The translations under genes were made by a program, and so were the position numbers. From Bacteroidota bacterium (GTDB lineage Bacteria; Bacteroidota; Bacteroidia; Bacteroidales; Bacteroidaceae), in NCBI GenBank assembly GCA_023458215.1, contig JAEXAJ010000061.1:1-38031 (forward strand): DNA of 38,031 bases, written 5' to 3'. This document shows positions 5,728 through 34,275 of the stretch, piece by piece. The notes beneath the pieces were generated by a model. The model ran no database searches, was not told where the DNA came from, and worked only from the letters and a program-made list of their open reading frames with translations. How positions within the stretch are numbered: the first letter of the stretch is position 1; every line of letters begins with the position of its first letter.

Positions 5728-5812
5728 AAGGATTATTCTGACATATAGTCAAGAACAACCCTTAAATATTAGATATAAAAGATATGTTTTATATCATATT
5801 GACAAAAAAAAC

Positions 5813-5889
5813 AGTAATTAGTGATTAGCTGCGCTATCATTCCGAATGAAAACATCAACCAATCACTAATCACTAATAACTAATCACTA
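5813..5889. repeat. TAGTGAT-type inverted repeat, copy 1 (short loop)
   Basis: The left arm (5813-5828) pairs with part of the right arm (5861-5889) at 15 of 16 positions; the right arm is longer and shows the heptamer ATCACTA in tandem. The loop is 32 nt and codes for nothing. The element lies between the carboxyltransferase promoter and the stop codon of the sigma factor gene, whose stop is 14 bases from the right arm. It is the most eroded of the four copies. Confidence 0.8.
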
Positions 5890-7417: not shown

Positions 7418-7519
7418 TAGTGTTTAGTGATTAGTGATTAGTGATTTGTTTATAAGCTGATTATACCGTTATATTGTAGAAATGACGACAAACCACTAAT
7501 CATTAATCACTAGTCACTA
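7418..7519. repeat. TAGTGAT-type inverted repeat, copy 2 (short loop)
   Basis: Arms 7418-7450 and 7487-7519 are each 33 nt and match as reverse complements at 28 of 33 positions. The left arm is four TAGTGAT-like heptamers plus TTGTT. The loop is 36 nt and codes for nothing. It sits between the divergent TRIC and epimerase-like genes, 7 bases upstream of the TRIC ATG, so it would lie in or overlap the TRIC leader. Confidence 0.9.
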
Positions 7520-7594: not shown

Positions 7595-8680
7595 ATGAAA
7601 ATTACCATCGTATCGGGCGCACGCCCCAACTTTATGAAAATAGCCCCCATCTGCCGTGCCATCGATTTGGCCAAAGATGCAGGAAAAAATGTTTCTTACC
7701 GGCTGGTTTATACCGGCCCGGAAAATGATGCAAGTTTGGATGCTTCGCTCTTTTCCGATCTCTCTATGAGAAAGCCGGATGCTTATTTAGGTATAAGCGG
7801 ACACGATCATTCGCAGGTAGCAGCTTCCATCATGCTTGCTTTCGAGAAAGAGCTGGATCATAATCCGGCACAAGTTGTGCTGGTGGTAGATGATATGACG
7901 GCAACTATGAGTTGTGCCATCGTAGCCAAAAAACGTGGTTTAAAAGTAGCGCATGTCATAGCCGGCACTCGTTCTTTTGATATGAATATGCCACGTGAAG
8001 TAAACCGCACCATCGTAGATGCCATATCCGATTATCTATTTACAGCCGGCATGGTAGCCAATCGTAACCTCAACCAAGAAGGTATGATACCGGAATATAT
8101 ACATTATGTAGGCAATATTTTGATAGATACGATCCGCTATAACCGTCATAGACTGATACAGCCGATGTGGTTTTCTACCCTAGGCCTACGCAAAGGCAAC
8201 TATTTGTTGCTCACTCTCAACCGCCGTGACTTGCTGGAGAAGAAAGCAGTGCTGCACTCTCTGATGCAAACATTATTGGAAAAAGCGGAGGGTATGCCCA
8301 TCGTCGCTCCTTTGCACCCGTATGTAGAAAAAGCTGTAAAATCGTTGGAACTGAATGCTCCCAACCTGCATATTCTGCCTCCTCAGAGCTATTTACATTT
8401 CGGATTTCTTATCAATCAGGCCAAAGGAATCGTTACCGACTCAGGTAACATTGCCGAAGAAGCCACTTTCCTCGATGTGCCTTGCATCACGCTCAACACT
8501 TATGCCGAACATCCGGAAACCTGGCGCATCGGTACCAACGAATTGGTAGGTGAAAATTCCTTCGCCCTTTCTGCCGCACTTGACAATCTATTCCAAGGCA
8601 GTTGGAAACACGCTACCCTACCCGACCGCTGGGATGGGCGGACGGCGGAGAGAATTGTGCAGACACTGATTAGTGATTAG
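7595..8680 (+). CDS. Divergent UDP-N-acetylglucosamine 2-epimerase (WecB-type) homologue
   Basis: 361 residues, the usual length for the family, with a two-domain GT-B-like fold. Family landmarks are recognisable but altered compared with E. coli WecB: GTRPE is GARPN; HGDTTTTL is VDDMTATM (the Asp is kept); HVEAGLR is HVIAGTR, so the catalytic Glu117 equivalent is Ile122; PEEANR is PREVNR (Glu135 kept); TGHRRES is TLNRRDL, so the His213 equivalent is Asn209. TDSGGIQEE is TDSGNIAEE. UDP-sugar binding is plausible, but normal epimerase chemistry is doubtful; it may be a hydrolase, a different epimerase or a regulator. The last codons and the TAG stop lie inside the left arm of inverted repeat 3. 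No polysaccharide gene cluster surrounds it. Confidence 0.8.
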   Translation: MKITIVSGARPNFMKIAPICRAIDLAKDAGKNVSYRLVYTGPENDASLDASLFSDLSMRKPDAYLGISGHDHSQVAASIMLAFEKELDHNPAQVVLVVDDMTATMSCAIVAKKRGLKVAHVIAGTRSFDMNMPREVNRTIVDAISDYLFTAGMVANRNLNQEGMIPEYIHYVGNILIDTIRYNRHRLIQPMWFSTLGLRKGNYLLLTLNRRDLLEKKAVLHSLMQTLLEKAEGMPIVAPLHPYVEKAVKSLELNAPNLHILPPQSYLHFGFLINQAKGIVTDSGNIAEEATFLDVPCITLNTYAEHPETWRIGTNELVGENSFALSAALDNLFQGSWKHATLPDRWDGRTAERIVQTLISD

Positions 8681-8757
8681 TGTTTAGTGATTAGTGATTT
8701 GTTTGTACTCCGCATGGAAACACCAGCAAATCACTAATCATTAATCACTAATCACTA
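8671..8757. repeat. TAGTGAT-type inverted repeat, copy 3 (short loop)
   Basis: Arms 8671-8701 and 8727-8757 are reverse complements at 29 of 31 positions; the loop is 25 nt. The left arm is four TAGTGAT-like heptamers followed by TTTG. It overlaps the end of the epimerase-like gene and supplies its TAG stop codon at 8678-8680. Confidence 0.92.
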
Positions 8758-8827: not shown

Positions 8828-11413
8828 ATGAAGCAACGACATATTACTCTCATTGTTTTACTGTTATCTCTTTTCGCCTCTCTCGGCGTATCTGCACAGA
8901 TAAAAGGAGTCATTACAGACTCCCTCACTCACGAACCATTAATGTATATCACCGTACAGTACGAAGGTAAGGGGATTGGTGGTATTTCAAATGCAAAAGG
9001 AGAATATCAGGTAGAGACCCGTAAAGGATGGGATGAATTGACTTTTTCAGCTGTAGGTTATATTACCAAGAAGGTGAAATTCGCACCCGGAACTAAAGTG
9101 CTTAATGTAAAAATGATGTCCGACGATATTATGCTTTCCGAAGTCATAGTAAAGCCGCAAAAGGAAAAGTATTCACGCAAGAACAATCCTGCCGTGGAAT
9201 TCATGAAAAAGGTCATCGAGAACAAGAAGGCACTCAAATTGCAGGAAAACGATTACTACCAATACCAGAAGTACGAAAAGATGAAGATGTCCATCAACGA
9301 CGTAACTCCGGAGAAGATGGAAAAAGGTATCTACAAAAAATTCTCGTTCTTCAAAGACCAAGTGGAATTATCTCCCAAAACCAACAAGATGATTCTTCCC
9401 ATCTCTATCAAAGAAACAGCCTCGAAGACTATCTATCGTAAAAATCCAAAAAGCGAAAAGACCATCATTGAAGGTATGAATTCTTCGGGTATAGAAGAGT
9501 TTTTCAGCACAGGTGATATGCTGGGTACTATCCTTACAGACGTATTCTCCGAGGTTAATATATACGACGACGACATCCGTCTCTTGCAGCGCCGTTTTGT
9601 CAGCCCCATCGGACGTGGAGCCATCAGCTTCTATAAATACTACCTCATGGATACATTGATGGTAGACAAGCAAGAGTGCGTGCACCTCACTTTCGTTCCT
9701 CAGAATCCGCAAGACTTCGGATTTACGGGGCACCTTTATGTTGTGAATGATTCTACATACGCCGTGAAGAAAGCCACGATGAACCTACCCAAAAAGACCG
9801 GAGTCAACTTCGTGGAAAACCTAGACATCATACAGCAGTACGAACAAATGCCCGATGGTAACTGGGTATTGACTGACGACGATATGACCGTAGAGCTAGC
9901 TTTAATGAAAGGCATCCAAGGATTGGAAGTGCAACGGACTACCAAATACACCGATTACCTGTTCGATGATATAGAGCCCCGGCTTTTCCGTCTGACCGGA
10001 AACGTCATTAAGGATGCAAACATGCTCAACAGAAGTGATGAATACTGGGCAAAAGTGCGCCAAGTGCCGCTAACCAAGAAAGAAAGTAATATGGACGTAT
10101 TCATGAACCGTATCGAACAAATACCGGGTTTCAAATACGTTATCTTTGGTGCTAAGGCATTGATTGAAAACTTTGTAGAAACAGGTTCCAAGAAGCATCC
10201 AAGCAAGTTTGACTTCGGACCTATCAACACTGCCATTACCAGCAACTACGTCAATGGTACCCGCTTCCGCTTGAGTGGTATGACTACCGGTAATCTTGAC
10301 CCGCACTGGAGCATGAGCGGTTATGGAGCTTACGGTACTAAGGACAAAAAATGGTTCTATTCGGGGCAGGTGGCTTATTCTTTCAACAAGCGTGAATACG
10401 TATTGTGGGAGTTCCCGAAGCATTATATCGCCTTTAAATACACCTACGACGTCATGTCGCCCATGGATAAGTATCTGGCTACGGACAAGGATAACTTATT
10501 TGTCGGCTGGAAATGGACTACGGTCGATCAGATGTCCTATATGCGCGACGCTACTCTTACTTACGAATTGGAAACCAATGCCGGATTCTCCGTTCAAGCT
10601 ATGGCACGCCATCGTAACGATCAGCCTGCGGGCAAGTTGCAATACTGGAAGAATAATGGCACAACTCCCGGCGAATGGGGAGAAAAGAACACGTTAGTGC
10701 ATGACATCACCACCACCGAGTTGGGAGTGACTTTGCGTTATGCTCCCGGCGAAACCTACGTCAACACCAAGCAACGCCGGGTACCGGTATCACTGGATGC
10801 ACCGATATTCACACTTTCGCATACGGCCGGTTTCAAAGGCGTGTTGGGAGGAGAATACAATTTCAACCTGACGGAAGCCAGCGTACGCAAGCGTTTCTGG
10901 TTTGGCTCGTGGGGTAAACTGGATGTCACTGCACGTGCGGGTGCCCAGTGGAACACTGTACCTTTCCCCTTACTGAACCTGCCTATGGCGAATCTTTCGT
11001 ATATCTCGCAGAACAACGAATCCTTCAACCTTATCAACAATATGGAGTTCCTCAACGACCGTTATGCCTCCCTCAACTTGAGCTACGACATGAACGGCAA
11101 GTTGTTCAACCGCATTCCGCTTATCAAGAAATTGAAATGGCGTGAAATGTTCCGCATTCGCGGCCTTTGGGGTACACTGACCGATAAGAACAATCCCTAC
11201 AAGAGCAGCAATCCCGATTTGTTCCTCTTCCCCATGCGCGATGGCATGCCTACCAGTCACATCATGGGCAAGACACCCTATCTTGAAGCCAGCGTAGGTA
11301 TCTACAACATCTTCAAACTATTGCACATCGAATATGTACGAAGACTGACCTACACCGATATCCCCGGTGTAAAGAATGACGGTATACGATTTATGATATT
11401 GATGATATTCTAA
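8828..11413 (+). CDS. DUF5686 / carboxypeptidase-regulatory-like outer-membrane protein
   Basis: 861 residues. A signal peptide is clear (residues 1-23, ending GVSA before QIKG). A CarboxypepD_reg-like beta-sandwich domain follows (about 24-115: KGVITDSLTHEPLMYITVQYEG, then FSAVGYITKKV). The remaining ~740 residues match the DUF5686 family in layout: a helical and strand-rich middle segment, then a long run of alternating aromatic/polar strands ending in a Phe (MILMIF*), typical of an outer-membrane beta-barrel. There is no TonB plug domain, so it is not a TonB receptor. Its function is unknown. It heads a run of same-strand genes that continues through the four-helix-bundle gene to rarA. Confidence 0.85.
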   Translation: MKQRHITLIVLLLSLFASLGVSAQIKGVITDSLTHEPLMYITVQYEGKGIGGISNAKGEYQVETRKGWDELTFSAVGYITKKVKFAPGTKVLNVKMMSDDIMLSEVIVKPQKEKYSRKNNPAVEFMKKVIENKKALKLQENDYYQYQKYEKMKMSINDVTPEKMEKGIYKKFSFFKDQVELSPKTNKMILPISIKETASKTIYRKNPKSEKTIIEGMNSSGIEEFFSTGDMLGTILTDVFSEVNIYDDDIRLLQRRFVSPIGRGAISFYKYYLMDTLMVDKQECVHLTFVPQNPQDFGFTGHLYVVNDSTYAVKKATMNLPKKTGVNFVENLDIIQQYEQMPDGNWVLTDDDMTVELALMKGIQGLEVQRTTKYTDYLFDDIEPRLFRLTGNVIKDANMLNRSDEYWAKVRQVPLTKKESNMDVFMNRIEQIPGFKYVIFGAKALIENFVETGSKKHPSKFDFGPINTAITSNYVNGTRFRLSGMTTGNLDPHWSMSGYGAYGTKDKKWFYSGQVAYSFNKREYVLWEFPKHYIAFKYTYDVMSPMDKYLATDKDNLFVGWKWTTVDQMSYMRDATLTYELETNAGFSVQAMARHRNDQPAGKLQYWKNNGTTPGEWGEKNTLVHDITTTELGVTLRYAPGETYVNTKQRRVPVSLDAPIFTLSHTAGFKGVLGGEYNFNLTEASVRKRFWFGSWGKLDVTARAGAQWNTVPFPLLNLPMANLSYISQNNESFNLINNMEFLNDRYASLNLSYDMNGKLFNRIPLIKKLKWREMFRIRGLWGTLTDKNNPYKSSNPDLFLFPMRDGMPTSHIMGKTPYLEASVGIYNIFKLLHIEYVRRLTYTDIPGVKNDGIRFMILMIF

Positions 11414-11415
11414 AA

Positions 11416-11855
11416 TAGTGATTAGTGGTTAGTGATTAGTGATTTGTTATAAAGATGAAAGACAGTATACTAAAAGAAAAAGCGATGAACTTTGCTATTC
11501 GCATAGTTAATCTATATAACTTTTTATATAATAAAAATCAGGAAAAGGTTATGTCTAAGCAAATATTAAGATGCGGAACCTCCATAGGAGCTAATATCAG
11601 CGAAGGGGTATTTGCTGAATCTCCTGCAGACTTCATACATAAATATTCTATTTCCCAGAAAGAATGTTCAGAAACATTATACTGGCTTGAATTGTTATTC
11701 AGAACAGACTATATATCACTCCAGCAGTATACCTCCTTAAATACAGATTGCACAGATCTTATTAAGATGATAACCGCTTCAATTATTACCTGTAAAAAAA
11801 GCCTTCATCATCAACCCTAATAAACAAATCACTAATCACTAATAACTAATCACTA
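11416..11855 (+). mobile_element. Putative hairpin element: 33-bp TAGTGAT inverted repeats enclosing a four-helix-bundle gene
   Basis: Left arm 11416-11448 and right arm 11823-11855 match as reverse complements at 31 of 33 positions; the consensus is four TAGTGAT-type heptamers plus TTGTT. The 374-nt loop holds 6 nt, one complete ORF (11455-11820) and 2 nt. The unit begins 2 bases after the DUF5686 stop and ends 5 bases before the rarA ATG. Its arms are the same family as the three short-loop copies at 5.8, 7.4 and 8.7 kb. Seen directly: the arms, their relatedness and the fit of the ORF. Inferred: that the unit moves or acts as one piece. No transposase or target-site duplication is recognisable. 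Confidence 0.7.
11455..11820 (+). CDS. Four-helix-bundle protein (23S rRNA intervening-sequence protein family)
   Basis: 121 residues, all helical. The family pattern is clear: KAMNFAIRIVNLYNFL at the start, then KQILRCGTSIGANISEG, then DFIHKYSISQKECSETLYWLELL. This is the TIGR02436/S23 family, first described in the ORFs of 23S rRNA intervening sequences of Leptospira and others; the Avd accessory protein of diversity-generating retroelements has the same fold. The protein is basic in part and may bind nucleic acid; its biochemical role is not established. The gene fills the loop of a 33-bp inverted repeat and is more AT-rich than rarA and the DUF5686 gene. No reverse transcriptase or rRNA gene is near, so neither a DGR nor an rRNA-borne setting applies here. 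Confidence 0.9.
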   Translation: MKDSILKEKAMNFAIRIVNLYNFLYNKNQEKVMSKQILRCGTSIGANISEGVFAESPADFIHKYSISQKECSETLYWLELLFRTDYISLQQYTSLNTDCTDLIKMITASIITCKKSLHHQP

Positions 11856-11860
11856 AAAAA

Positions 11861-13123
11861 ATGCCTCCATTAGCAGAGCGGCTTCGGCCCAAGACATTAG
11901 ATGAGTATATCGGTCAGAAACACTTGGTGGGACCGAATGCGGTGTTGCGCAAGATGATTGACGCAGGACGTATCTCGTCGTTCATTCTGTGGGGACCGCC
12001 GGGAGTGGGAAAGACAACATTGGCACAGATCATTGCCAACAAGTTGGAGACTCCTTTCTATACGCTTAGTGCAGTCACCAGTGGAGTGAAAGATGTACGC
12101 GATGTGATAGAGCGAGCAAAAAGCAACCGCTTCTTTTCGCAATCAAGCCCTATCATGTTTATCGATGAAATACACCGCTTCAGTAAGTCGCAACAAGACT
12201 CTTTGTTGGGAGCGGTAGAGCAAGGGGTAGTGACGTTGATAGGAGCTACTACCGAAAACCCTTCATTTGAAGTCATTCGACCCTTATTATCACGTTGCCA
12301 GCTTTATGTGCTGAAATCCTTGGAGAAAGAAGATTTGCTGGATTTGTTACAACGTGCTATTACTACCGACATTATATTAAAGGAGAGAAAGATAGAATTA
12401 AAAGAGACTACCGCTATGCTCCGCTTCAGTGGAGGAGACGCGCGAAAGTTGCTGAACATTCTCGAACTGGTGGTAGAGTCGGAAACAGAAAATACAGTGG
12501 TCATTACCGATGAAATAGTTACTGACCGTCTGCAGCAGAATCCCCTAGCCTACGATAAAGATGGAGAGATGCATTACGATATCATCTCCGCCTTTATCAA
12601 ATCCATTCGAGGAAGTGATCCGGATGGTGCCATCTACTGGCTGGCCCGTATGGTAGAAGGTGGTGAAGACCCTGCTTTCATAGCTCGCCGTCTTGTGATC
12701 TCCGCCTCCGAAGACATCGGACTGGCAAATCCTAACGCCATGCTGATAGCCAATGCCTGCTTCGATACCCTGATGAAGGTTGGTTGGCCCGAAGGACGTA
12801 TCCCTTTGGCAGAAGCAACTATTTATCTTGCTACGAGTCCTAAAAGCAATTCAGCATATCTTGCCATTGATAGTGCGTTGGCACTTGTACGCGAAACAGG
12901 CAATCTTCCTGTACCACTCCATTTGCGCAATTCTCCTACGAAGCTGATGAAACAATTGGGATATGGCGAGAATTACAAATATGCCCACGATTATCCGGGT
13001 CACTTCGTCAAGCAACAATTTCTGCCCGATGAAATAAAAGACCGACGAATTTGGGAACCTCAACAAAATGCAGCCGAACAGAAACATAAAGAACGGATGC
13101 AACAACTTTGGGGAAGAGAATAA
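11861..13123 (+). CDS. rarA: Replication-associated recombination protein A (AAA+ ATPase)
   Basis: 420 residues. The AAA+ core has Walker A GPPGVGKTT (Lys51), Walker B FIDEIHRF, sensor 1 in IGATTENPSFE and the arginine-finger region PLLSRCQLY. The C-terminal part (SASEDIGLANP, PEGRIPLAEATIYLATSPKSN, GYGENYKYAHDYPGHF) is the MgsA/RarA tetramerisation domain. RarA acts at stalled replication forks, related to clamp-loader subunits. The start at MPPLAERLRPKTLDEYIGQ fits the family start. The ATG is 5 bases after the right arm of the four-helix-bundle element, so its translation initiation region lies partly inside the repeat. Confidence 0.97.
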   Translation: MPPLAERLRPKTLDEYIGQKHLVGPNAVLRKMIDAGRISSFILWGPPGVGKTTLAQIIANKLETPFYTLSAVTSGVKDVRDVIERAKSNRFFSQSSPIMFIDEIHRFSKSQQDSLLGAVEQGVVTLIGATTENPSFEVIRPLLSRCQLYVLKSLEKEDLLDLLQRAITTDIILKERKIELKETTAMLRFSGGDARKLLNILELVVESETENTVVITDEIVTDRLQQNPLAYDKDGEMHYDIISAFIKSIRGSDPDGAIYWLARMVEGGEDPAFIARRLVISASEDIGLANPNAMLIANACFDTLMKVGWPEGRIPLAEATIYLATSPKSNSAYLAIDSALALVRETGNLPVPLHLRNSPTKLMKQLGYGENYKYAHDYPGHFVKQQFLPDEIKDRRIWEPQQNAAEQKHKERMQQLWGRE

Positions 13124-13130
13124 CTTTAAA

Positions 13131-13160
13131 AAAACAACTCATAACTAATAACTTACAACT
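13131..13160. repeat. Possible solo arm related to the TAGTGAT repeats
   Basis: Read on the minus strand this has a loose 7-bp period (TGTAAGT, TATTAGT, TATGAGT) ending in TTGTTTT, like a decayed right arm. No partner arm is visible. It fills the rarA-dehydrogenase gap. Relation to the other copies is tentative. Confidence 0.3.
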
Positions 13161-32742: not shown

Positions 32743-32815
32743 GATTCGCTAGCTCAGCAGGTAGAGCACAACACTTTTAATGTTGGGGTCTTGGGTTCGA
32801 ACCCCAAGCGGATCA
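32743..32815 (+). tRNA. tRNA-Lys (anticodon UUU)
   Basis: The acceptor stem GATTCGC/GCGGATC closes with one G-U pair and discriminator A at 32815. The D arm has GCTCAGCAGGTAGAGC; the anticodon stem CAACA/TGTTG encloses CTTTTAA, so the anticodon is TTT. The T arm TTGGGTTCGAACCCCAA is perfect, and CCA is not encoded. The tRNA is intact, as expected if an element that used its 3' end as attB restored the gene. Confidence 0.97.
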
Positions 32816-32839
32816 CTGAAACAAGATGAAAAATAAAGT

Positions 32840-32878
32840 AAATCCCTGATAGTCAACCACTATCGGGGATTTCTTTTT
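32840..32878 (+). terminator. Strong intrinsic terminator after tRNA-Lys
   Basis: AAATCCC/GGGATTT outer stem and GATAGT/ACTATC inner stem joined by one T-G pair, loop CAACC, followed by CTTTTT. It ends tRNA transcription and insulates the integrase gene. Confidence 0.93.
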
Positions 32879-32884
32879 CCCCTC

Positions 32885-32964
32885 AGTCCACCATTTTAGG
32901 CAGATTACAGCAAGAAAAACAGGTGAAATCGGTGGACTTTGTTTTGGTTCGATTTTAGTCCACC
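32885..32964. repeat. Three copies of AGTCCACC in mixed orientation before the integrase gene
   Basis: AGTCCACC at 32885-32892 and 32957-32964, and its reverse complement GGTGGACT at 32931-32938. The last two form a 10-bp inverted repeat (TCGGTGGACT/AGTCCACCGA). Repeats near the integrase gene of this kind are candidates for arm-type binding sites of the recombinase or for an autoregulatory operator. Confidence 0.7.
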
Positions 32965-33026
32965 GAATTGAACTTTACTCTTTGATACACTGTGTTTTGC
33001 GTAACGGGATTTCAGGCTTGAAATAG

Positions 33027-33034
33027 TAATTTTG
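33027..33034 (+). promoter_or_regulatory. Predicted -7 box of the integrase gene
   Basis: TAATTTTG fits TAnnTTTG, 26 bases before the ATG. A TTTG at 32996-32999 is a distant -33 candidate. Confidence 0.45.
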
Positions 33035-33060
33035 AACCATTAAAATTTAAACTTAAGAGT

Positions 33061-34275
33061 ATGGACAGAAACTATTTTTCAATCCTCTTTTTCATTAAGA
33101 AGAGTAAGTTACTAAAGAATGGCGAAGCACCGATTTGCCTGCGTATCACAATCAACGGCCAACGTGCGGAAGTTCAAATCAAACGCAGTATTGAGATTTC
33201 CCAGTGGAACAGCAATAAGGAATGCGCGATTGGGAAGGAACGGAAACATCAGGAACTCAACCACTATCTTGAAACGGTACGAACAAAAGTGCTTCGTATT
33301 CATAGAGAGCTGGAACAAGACGGCAAACCCATTACCGCCGAAATCCTGAAACGCCATTTTTATGGTGAAAATGAATATCCTAAAATGCTGCTGGAAGTTT
33401 TCAGGGAACATAATAAGAAGTACCGTGAGCTTTTGGATAAAGATGTGGTATTGGGTACGGTTCTGCGATATGAAAGAACGGTCCGCTATCTCGAAGAATT
33501 CATGCAAGAGAAATATCGTTTCTCTGATATTCCATTGAAGAATATTAATCAGGAGTTTGTGAAAGAGTTCGAGCATTTTATAAAAACGGAGAAAGACTGC
33601 GCCCAGAATGCTACCGTCAAGTATCTGAAGAATCTGAAAAAGATAATCCGGAATGCGCTTGTCAATAAATGGATGGATGATGACCCGTTCGTTGAAATCC
33701 GCTTCCACCAGACTGCCAGTAACCGCGAGTTTCTGACGGAAGAGGAATTGAATAAACTGATTGAGAAAGAATTTACAATTCCAAGAATGGAAGTAGTCCG
33801 TGATATTTTCGTCTTTTGCAGCCTGACCGGACTCGCTTTCACGGATGTGCAACATCTGAAACCGGAGCATATCTTCCGCGACATGGACGGTAGTTATTGG
33901 ATTCGCAAAACAAGGGAAAAGACAGATAATATGTGCAATATACCTTTACTCGATCTTCCGATGAAGCTGATTCGGAAGTATCAAAACCATCCTGAATGTG
34001 TCCGCAAAGGCGTTGTGATGCCTGTGCCCTGCAATCAGCGGATGAACAGCTATCTTAAAGAAATAGCCGATATATGCGGAATCCAGAAGGCGCTGAGTAC
34101 GCACATCGCACGCCATACCTTTGCCTGTCTGGCTATTGCAAACAAAGTTTCTACGGAGTCTATTGCTAAAATGTTGGGACATACCGATATTAGAACTACT
34201 AAAATTTATGCCCGCATATTAGACCGGACGGTTGCTGACGAAATGCAGATACTCAGAGGTAAATTTGCAGTATAG
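33061..34275 (+). CDS. Tyrosine recombinase (Bacteroides-element integrase type)
   Basis: 404 residues. An N-terminal arm-binding domain (YFSILFFIKKSKLLKNGEAPICLRITINGQRAEVQIKR) is followed by a SAM-like core-binding domain (about 100-210). The catalytic domain has the box II motif H348-x-x-R351 (HIARHTF), His374 (LGHTDI) and the nucleophile Tyr383 (TKIYARI). Where classical enzymes have the first catalytic Arg (TGLR), this reads TGLA (Ala259), a substitution also typical of the IntDOT-like group of Bacteroides element integrases. It presumably integrates the element at tRNA-Lys, 245 bases upstream. A terminator follows the gene. Confidence 0.95.
   Translation: MDRNYFSILFFIKKSKLLKNGEAPICLRITINGQRAEVQIKRSIEISQWNSNKECAIGKERKHQELNHYLETVRTKVLRIHRELEQDGKPITAEILKRHFYGENEYPKMLLEVFREHNKKYRELLDKDVVLGTVLRYERTVRYLEEFMQEKYRFSDIPLKNINQEFVKEFEHFIKTEKDCAQNATVKYLKNLKKIIRNALVNKWMDDDPFVEIRFHQTASNREFLTEEELNKLIEKEFTIPRMEVVRDIFVFCSLTGLAFTDVQHLKPEHIFRDMDGSYWIRKTREKTDNMCNIPLLDLPMKLIRKYQNHPECVRKGVVMPVPCNQRMNSYLKEIADICGIQKALSTHIARHTFACLAIANKVSTESIAKMLGHTDIRTTKIYARILDRTVADEMQILRGKFAV

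Follow-up and report, generated by a model that had tools for sequence, protein, structure and literature searches.

A four-helix-bundle S23 gene between inverted heptamer arrays exemplifies a widespread association of S23 genes with heptamer hairpins

Results

Architecture of the S23 unit and its protein

The window analysed here is a 38,031-nt stretch of a Bacteroidaceae contig. It contains a compact unit in which an S23 gene encoding a four-helix-bundle protein of 121 residues (11455..11820, forward strand; TIGR02436, PF05635) lies between two inverted arms. The left arm (11416..11448, forward strand) consists of tandem TAGTGAT heptamers ending in TTTGTT; the right arm (11823..11855, reverse strand) is an inverted copy of this array. 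Each arm is 33 nt long, and the two are complementary at 31 of 33 positions (94%). Only 6 bases on the left and 2 on the right separate the ORF from the arms. The outer spacing is similarly tight: the left arm begins 2 bases past the stop of a DUF5686 gene (8828..11413, forward strand; PF18939, E 4.4e-59), and the right arm terminates 5 bases ahead of the start of a gene for a RarA/MgsA-type AAA ATPase (11861..13123, forward strand; PF12002 MgsA_C, E 4.4e-74). The S23 gene is the sole ORF of at least 80 amino acids inside the unit. An earlier note made from the sequence alone had described the arms, the ORF, the spacings and both neighbours, and all of these are confirmed here, the neighbours by Pfam.

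The heptamers run head to tail with no spacers between them, which rejects a CRISPR array. A known RNA family was likewise rejected, as the arms have no Rfam match at gathering score; the only such match in the window is a tRNA at 32743-32815. A phage-type integrase gene (33061-34275, PF00589) comes next, and the region (32743-34275) is probably the start of an integrated element running towards the window end.

The earlier note had further proposed that the transcript forms a long hairpin with the gene in its loop. Consistent with this proposal, the stem is paired in the predicted fold of the unit transcript, at -109 kcal/mol as compared to -73.2 ± 5.6 kcal/mol for 100 shuffles (z -6.4).

The assignment of the protein to TIGR02436, also anticipated in that note, is secure (score 111.4 bits, cut-off 24 bits, E 2.3e-32). 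PF05635 (23S_rRNA_IVP) matches at 101.3 bits against 33.8 (E 4.2e-29) and is the only Pfam match, so the protein has no known nuclease or polymerase domain. The AF2 model contains four helices (pLDDT 95.2) and superposes on 2rld_B (BT_0352) with a TM score of 0.90 and 58% identity; it also matches Xcc0516. The solved relatives 2rld and 2gsc carry the titles 'unknown function' and 'conserved hypothetical'. A more distant match is to Avd, both alone and in the reverse-transcriptase particle of diversity-generating retroelements (4dwl, 8ub7; E 0.12-0.20, TM about 0.75). Avd is a pentamer, and the five chains in each of the two S23 crystals are in line with this.

Inverted arms around S23 genes in other genomes

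Two sets of loci were assembled. For the first, named genome contigs were scanned with peptides of the window's own S23 protein, yielding 47 loci from Bacteroidota, Clostridia, Alphaproteobacteria, Synergistales, Kiritimatiellae and others. Most have inverted repeats built of seven-base units, and the words include TAGTGAT, AATTCCA, ATATCAA, AATTAGG, AGTGTGG, AGAGCAT and AAGGCAT, among others. The second set comprised 119 genomes of the genus group of genome G001, including Bacteroides gallinarum and Mediterranea massiliensis. It gave 112 S23 rows, 94 of which were analysed via their loci; the 18 left out were mostly fragments, contig ends or broken frames. One locus (L074) had no profile match to S23. 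In all, 146 S23 genes were found, 139 of them unique and 133 with enough flank to be scored.

Arms were called from an ungapped inverted repeat between the 200 nt upstream and the 250 nt downstream of a gene, at a score of at least 13. By this test, 102/133 S23 genes have arms, as compared to 12/451 other genes of the same loci; at a score of at least 20 the counts are 64/133 and 5/451. The remaining 31 of the 133 S23 genes lack arms at the threshold. The window unit scores 27. Four of the 451 control genes reach at least 25; among them is the window's own epimerase gene, which is flanked by two of the hairpins described below (E2 and E3).

The association extends beyond Bacteroidota. In Pseudomonadota, 62 of 398 genomes drawn match PF05635. 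Among the best-scoring 30 of these 62, one locus lay at a contig edge and 20 of the 29 scorable loci have arms (17 with period 7, two with period 8, one unclear); none of 195 random flank pairs did. Given these controls (12/451 genes and 0/195 random flanks), a chance inverted repeat was rejected. Of 25 plasmid records with S23 genes, mostly cyanobacterial, and two phage records, 16 were sampled (15 plasmid, one phage). Arms are present in 13 of the 15 plasmid records, all 13 with period 7. The S23 gene of a Pseudanabaena plasmid has none, that of Chlorohelix scored 10, and the one phage contig examined has no arms. A marine Bernardetia plasmid, from a different class of Bacteroidota than the window, carries its S23 gene with arrays of TAGTGAT, the window's word (L264, about 510-615 and 1038-1071).

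Several of these loci have noteworthy surroundings. A 0.9-Mb alphaproteobacterial genome (G120) contains six S23 genes (L246, L253, L256, L260, L262, L263), five of them with inverted repeats of different words. On cyanobacterial plasmids the S23 gene lies between cas2 and cas1 (L268, L274) or directly before cas1 (L277), and at L272, L275, L276 and L278 it adjoins helicase, methyltransferase or HEPN genes resembling defence islands.

Conservation of period and arm agreement rather than of the word

The 102 armed S23 genes have a period of 7 in 77 cases, 8 in 13, 9 in two, 10 in two and 11 in one, with none discernible in seven. Stems of period 8-11 (for example L062, L112, L070 and L136) are thus a minority, and a multiple of three is rare (2/95 with a clear period). 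In a separate test of upstream flanks, 96/133 were significant, 82 of these 96 at period 7 or 14; among control flanks 41/451 were significant, 33 of the 41 at lag 7 or 14, as expected from gene-free arrays. Arrays are usually short, 105 of 151 having four or five units.

The word itself varies widely. The 73 period-7 units use 45 distinct words, which rejects the arms as one fixed sequence motif, and the two arms of a unit nevertheless agree within one mismatch in 72/73. The earlier note had recommended TAGTGAT as the word by which to search for such arms. The generality of the arms holds, but TAGTGAT is only one of the 45 words; conservation lies in the period and in the match between the two arms. 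Read on the S23 sense strand, the words share a loose A-R-T register at neighbouring places (A in 37/45, A or G in 44/45, T in 39/45), which beats all 40 shuffled sets. Variant units lie opposite their complements, with 40 of 49 S23 units better than permuted order and three worse, the register having been picked by best score, which favours this result.

Two further readings of the words were considered. As stop codons in all frames, the arrays are too weak (38/70 left arms as compared to 25/70 on the opposite strand). Co-variation of protein and word was set aside as proof of recognition, since shared descent explains it.

Gene-free hairpins with the same arms

At up to three mismatches, TAGTGATTAGTGAT occurs 28 times in the window, as compared to 4.3 expected. 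Besides the S23 unit, these occurrences reveal three gene-free hairpins with the same arms, all within 6 kb upstream of the unit and overlooked in the earlier note; the remaining matches are few, with three mismatches each. Hairpin E1 (5812..5889) has TAGTGAT arms around a 22-base core at 5827-5848 and is missing from the same junction in L203. Hairpin E2 (7418..7519) lies between two gene starts, where L001 has a different repeat stretch. At the junction occupied by hairpin E3 (8664..8757), L001 has no TAGTGAT hairpin. The left arm of E3 (8664-8680) encodes the C-terminal residues and stop of a UDP-GlcNAc 2-epimerase-type gene (7595-8680), and its insertion seems to have replaced the native end of that gene. 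A fourth site, after rarA (13133..13155, reverse strand), is a probable single-arm remnant. It is a weak match, differing from the word at three positions, and the same junction in L001 is occupied by a full GAGTTAT hairpin.

Gene-free hairpins often have a core in common. At up to three mismatches, GGCTGCGCTATNATNCCGNATG is present in 43, 36, 33, 30 and 8 copies in five genomes with an S23 gene and in one copy in a genome without, the reversed pattern giving 0-1. Copies of the core within a single genome have different words on their flanks. The window contains the core once, in E1; at this stringency its S23 unit, E2 and E3 have no core match.

Heptamer arrays genome-wide and the presence of S23

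With S23 genes and 400 nt on each side masked, the arm word occurs at 0.181/kb in its own locus as compared to 0.0108/kb in other loci, a 16.7-fold difference, and recurs at least once in 24 of 80 loci. The same relationship is apparent across 118 genomes, many of them incomplete assemblies. The median array count for three words is 126.5 in the 68 genomes with an S23 gene and 9.5 in the 50 without (p 1e-10, uncorrected for relatedness), and at least 50 matches are present in 49/68 and 7/50, respectively. Each of the three words is also in excess in genomes whose own S23 unit uses it, as compared to other S23-containing genomes (medians 271/5, 69/2 and 122/32; p 0.0007, 0.0008 and 0.007). A backward control was uninformative for TAGTGAT because the reversed word is nearly identical.

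For two further words, ATTTACG and AGTAGTT, the genomes expected to be rich were written down before counting. The eight genomes named for ATTTACG gave 306, 130, 77, 37, 32, 22, 17 and 15 matches; beyond the unit itself, their median is about 28 as compared to 1 in the 110 others (p 1.3e-5). The highest of them (G033) has almost none of the first three words. Three of the four genomes named for AGTAGTT are rich (89, 84 and 32; p 0.008), and the prediction failed for G076, which has a 9-base arm. Rich genomes also appeared outside the predictions, namely G026 (85), G087 (39), G111 (37) and G116 (35) for ATTTACG, and G036 (281, the highest of all), G018 (66), G098 (54) and G048 (37) for AGTAGTT; no S23 gene was found in G048. 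These genomes weaken the pairing a little, and the period of 7 on plasmids strengthens it about equally.

Exceptions occur in both directions. Fewer than 10 matches to the first three words are present in 4/68 genomes with an S23 gene; G033, G046 and G061 match later words. Seven array-rich genomes have no detected S23 gene (G005, G048, G065, G069, G097, G102, G104). These could have lost their S23 units or contain them unassembled, use another partner, or need no S23. A single S23 gene also coexists with several words in G001, which has TAGTGAT, AGTTGAA, AATGTGCT, ATTAGGT and GAGTTAT. Such additional words, like the rich genomes outside the predictions, could stem from S23 units since lost, or could mean that arrays do not require S23.

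Polymorphic sites and position in gene rows

The rarA locus was compared in the closest 30 of 116 matching genomes, 27 of which have DUF5686 adjoining rarA. This junction contains an S23 unit in three relatives, a gene-free hairpin in five (L182, L183, L184, L187, L195), a poorly pairing heptamer array in two (L176, L186), a near-empty junction of 4-15 nt in 14 and an intermediate one of 26-40 nt in three. The words of the gene-free hairpins differ between relatives. The earlier note regarded a unit always present at rarA, or TIGR02436 genes elsewhere without arms, as findings that would speak against it. Neither is the case: the S23 unit is absent from 24 of the 27 comparable relatives, and arms accompany S23 genes generally, in the proportion given above. 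At L173, where the region is 77% identical at the DNA level, the S23 gene has the same position but both arms have become GAGTTAT, which indicates that the arms drift together. At L008 a related S23 gene lies on the opposite side of rarA. No target-site duplication of fixed length, the mark of a MITE, is readable, the near-empty junctions being only 4-15 nt and not alignable.

Close relatives keep their S23 genes in place. Both flanks are common to all 39 scorable pairs of S23 genes that are at least 80% identical, and on this ground the units look vertically inherited; the correlation of word and protein can then be plain descent. Pairs with neither flank in common number 24/75 at 70-80% identity and 307/361 at 60-70%. 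Frequent hopping of S23 units is unsupported in this genus sample.

Armed S23 units have the same direction as both neighbours in 85/95 cases, as compared to 251/406 small genes, a baseline that still contains S23 genes and rests on gene calls by a simple script. The median distance from the end of the upstream gene to the left arm is 1 nt, and that from the right arm to the next gene is 11 nt. Gene-free core hairpins (n=27) cluster at stop codons as well (34 distances, -20 to +26 nt, with one of 64) and are placed more loosely relative to starts (20 distances, -55 to 165).

Discussion

A model for the S23 unit

Taken together, these data establish that the unit at 11416-11855 is real and that it is one instance of a widespread association between S23 genes and heptamer hairpins, which we have not found described. 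Our preferred reading, with a probability of about one half, is that the unit is a hairpin element akin to the intervening sequences of rRNA, that it loops out of mRNA, and that the S23 protein acts on such hairpins in trans. Action in trans is the best-supported inference of the analysis.

The proposed mechanism involves: an element with a stem made of a heptamer array and its inverted copy; a loop occupied by the S23 gene or, in gene-free copies, by a short spacer that often includes a conserved core of about 22 bases; and a site directly behind a stop codon, within a row of co-directional genes. The window unit would be an S23-carrying copy of this element family. In its transcript, the arms are predicted to pair and loop out the 440-nt unit; at the foot of the stem, about 7 nt would then separate the stop codon of the DUF5686 gene from the start codon of rarA. 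This looping-out would parallel that of the intervening sequence in 23S rRNA. We consider that insertion is tolerated because the RNA folds out and leaves stop and start adjacent. The S23 protein, which by fold may form an Avd-like ring, would be expected to bind the heptamer arrays of its own stem as well as those of gene-free hairpins, and through this binding could act in trans in the spread or upkeep of the hairpins.

Hairpins placed behind stop codons might instead be dispersed regulatory sites, at the RNA or DNA level, through which the resident S23 protein controls the ends or decay of mRNAs or translational coupling; the stem of the S23 unit itself would then provide autoregulation. 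This is the most serious of the alternatives, though in our judgement unlikely. Such a role is favoured by the constancy of loci among S23 units at least 80% alike, by the stop-codon position that S23 units and gene-free hairpins have in common, and by the unit-by-unit complementarity that persists as words drift. However, that complementarity was scored in the best register, and hairpins that are polymorphic and differ in word at a single junction are less stable than one would expect of a regulon.

A protein-free origin is a more doubtful account. Here, hairpins would arise and spread by replication slippage and fold-back template switching, and S23 genes would be passengers that land or survive inside them. 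Fold-back correction can yield the agreement of arms, arrays exist in some genomes with no detected S23 gene, and heptamers are over-represented in bacteria generally, as far as the available text of two papers goes (PMC4692102, PMC6344855). This origin nevertheless leaves unexplained both the enclosure of S23 genes, given its rarity among control genes, and the match between the arm word of an S23 gene and the arrays across its genome.

The resemblance of S23 to Avd, alone and in its particle, together with the co-directional position of units in gene rows, could also fit an RNA-borne retroelement: S23 would assist a reverse transcriptase whose gene lies elsewhere, and copies of the hairpin RNA would return to the genome downstream of stop codons. 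With S23 as the only sizeable ORF in the unit, this seems very improbable. Chance or an assembly artefact, for which the low complexity of the arms is the sole argument, deserves practically no credence given low controls and the recurrence of this architecture across many phyla, in isolates, MAGs and plasmids alike.

Returning to the preferred model of a looped-out element with an S23 protein acting in trans, a broader version can be put forward tentatively, at somewhat lower confidence. Intergenic arrays of period 7 may largely be the stems of one class of hairpin element, with an S23 or Avd-like ring as partner. Recognition of the stem would depend on its period and a loose A-R-T register and not on a fixed sequence, the word being able to drift if both arms and the gene-free copies follow, and rRNA intervening sequences would be those members that landed in rRNA.

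Comparison with known systems

S23 proteins are known from intervening sequences of 23S rRNA, and the earlier note had regarded the unit as a free-standing relative of these. The terminal inverted repeats with an S23 ORF in their loop agree with that view; the position in 23S rRNA does not apply, as the unit sits between two protein genes. The unit is best classed as an intervening-sequence variant located outside rRNA, and the overall interpretation of the earlier note is partly supported.

The closest described case is a 428-nt intervening sequence of 23S rRNA with an S23 ORF between terminal inverted repeats and three tandem GACAGAT heptamers before the ORF, their number varying between strains; its cleavage by RNase III was shown in vitro (PMC4990558, from the text available). 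Like the window unit, it encloses an S23-family ORF in inverted repeats, with a stem of 28 bp as compared to 33 here. Unlike it, judging from the same text, the window unit lies between protein genes, uses another word and is accompanied by gene-free copies and genome-wide arrays, and GACAGAT by sight lacks the A-R-T register. These heptamers are the one overlap with our findings in the open-access literature, where no prior link between S23 genes in general and heptamer arms was found.

Heptamer repeats have been described separately. The available portions of these reports give GGGAATC heptamers in Xanthomonas, at about 70 inverted pairs per genome (PMC4692102), TAACTGA heptamers in Beggiatoaceae, cyanobacteria and Bacteroidetes (PMC4679880), and heptamers as the most abundant class of tandem repeat in prokaryotic intergenic DNA (PMC6344855). 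Like the S23 arms, these orphan repeats have period 7 and are mostly intergenic, and GGGAATC by sight contains A-R-T; in those portions they are not linked to an S23 gene. Xanthomonas also has an S23 gene, Xcc0516. The hairpins around S23 genes give a first clue to the abundance of seven-letter tandem repeats in bacteria. Should S23 prove to be the partner of such hairpins, the function of S23 and the orphan heptamers would both become testable. The pairing may also explain why PF05635 appears among CRISPR-array-linked domains in a survey seen in part (PMC10910872).

The fold that S23 has in common with Avd invites comparison with diversity-generating retroelements, and the available text of PMC10053308 likens PF05635 to Avd. 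In contrast to those systems, the window unit contains no reverse transcriptase ORF and, within the unit, no second ORF of at least 80 amino acids, and template and variable repeats were not seen for it.

In REP/RAYT systems, one protein gene is flanked by a palindromic repeat and the same repeat is scattered gene-free across the genome. The gene-free dispersal of the palindrome is matched in the window and in the genomes of relatives. The protein differs, being a four-helix bundle rather than a Y1 (HUH) transposase; in the unit, S23 is the only ORF of at least 80 amino acids. The repeat differs as well, being defined by its period and not by its sequence. If S23 is indeed the partner of heptamer hairpins, the two would form an unusual repeat-protein pair in which period is conserved rather than sequence.
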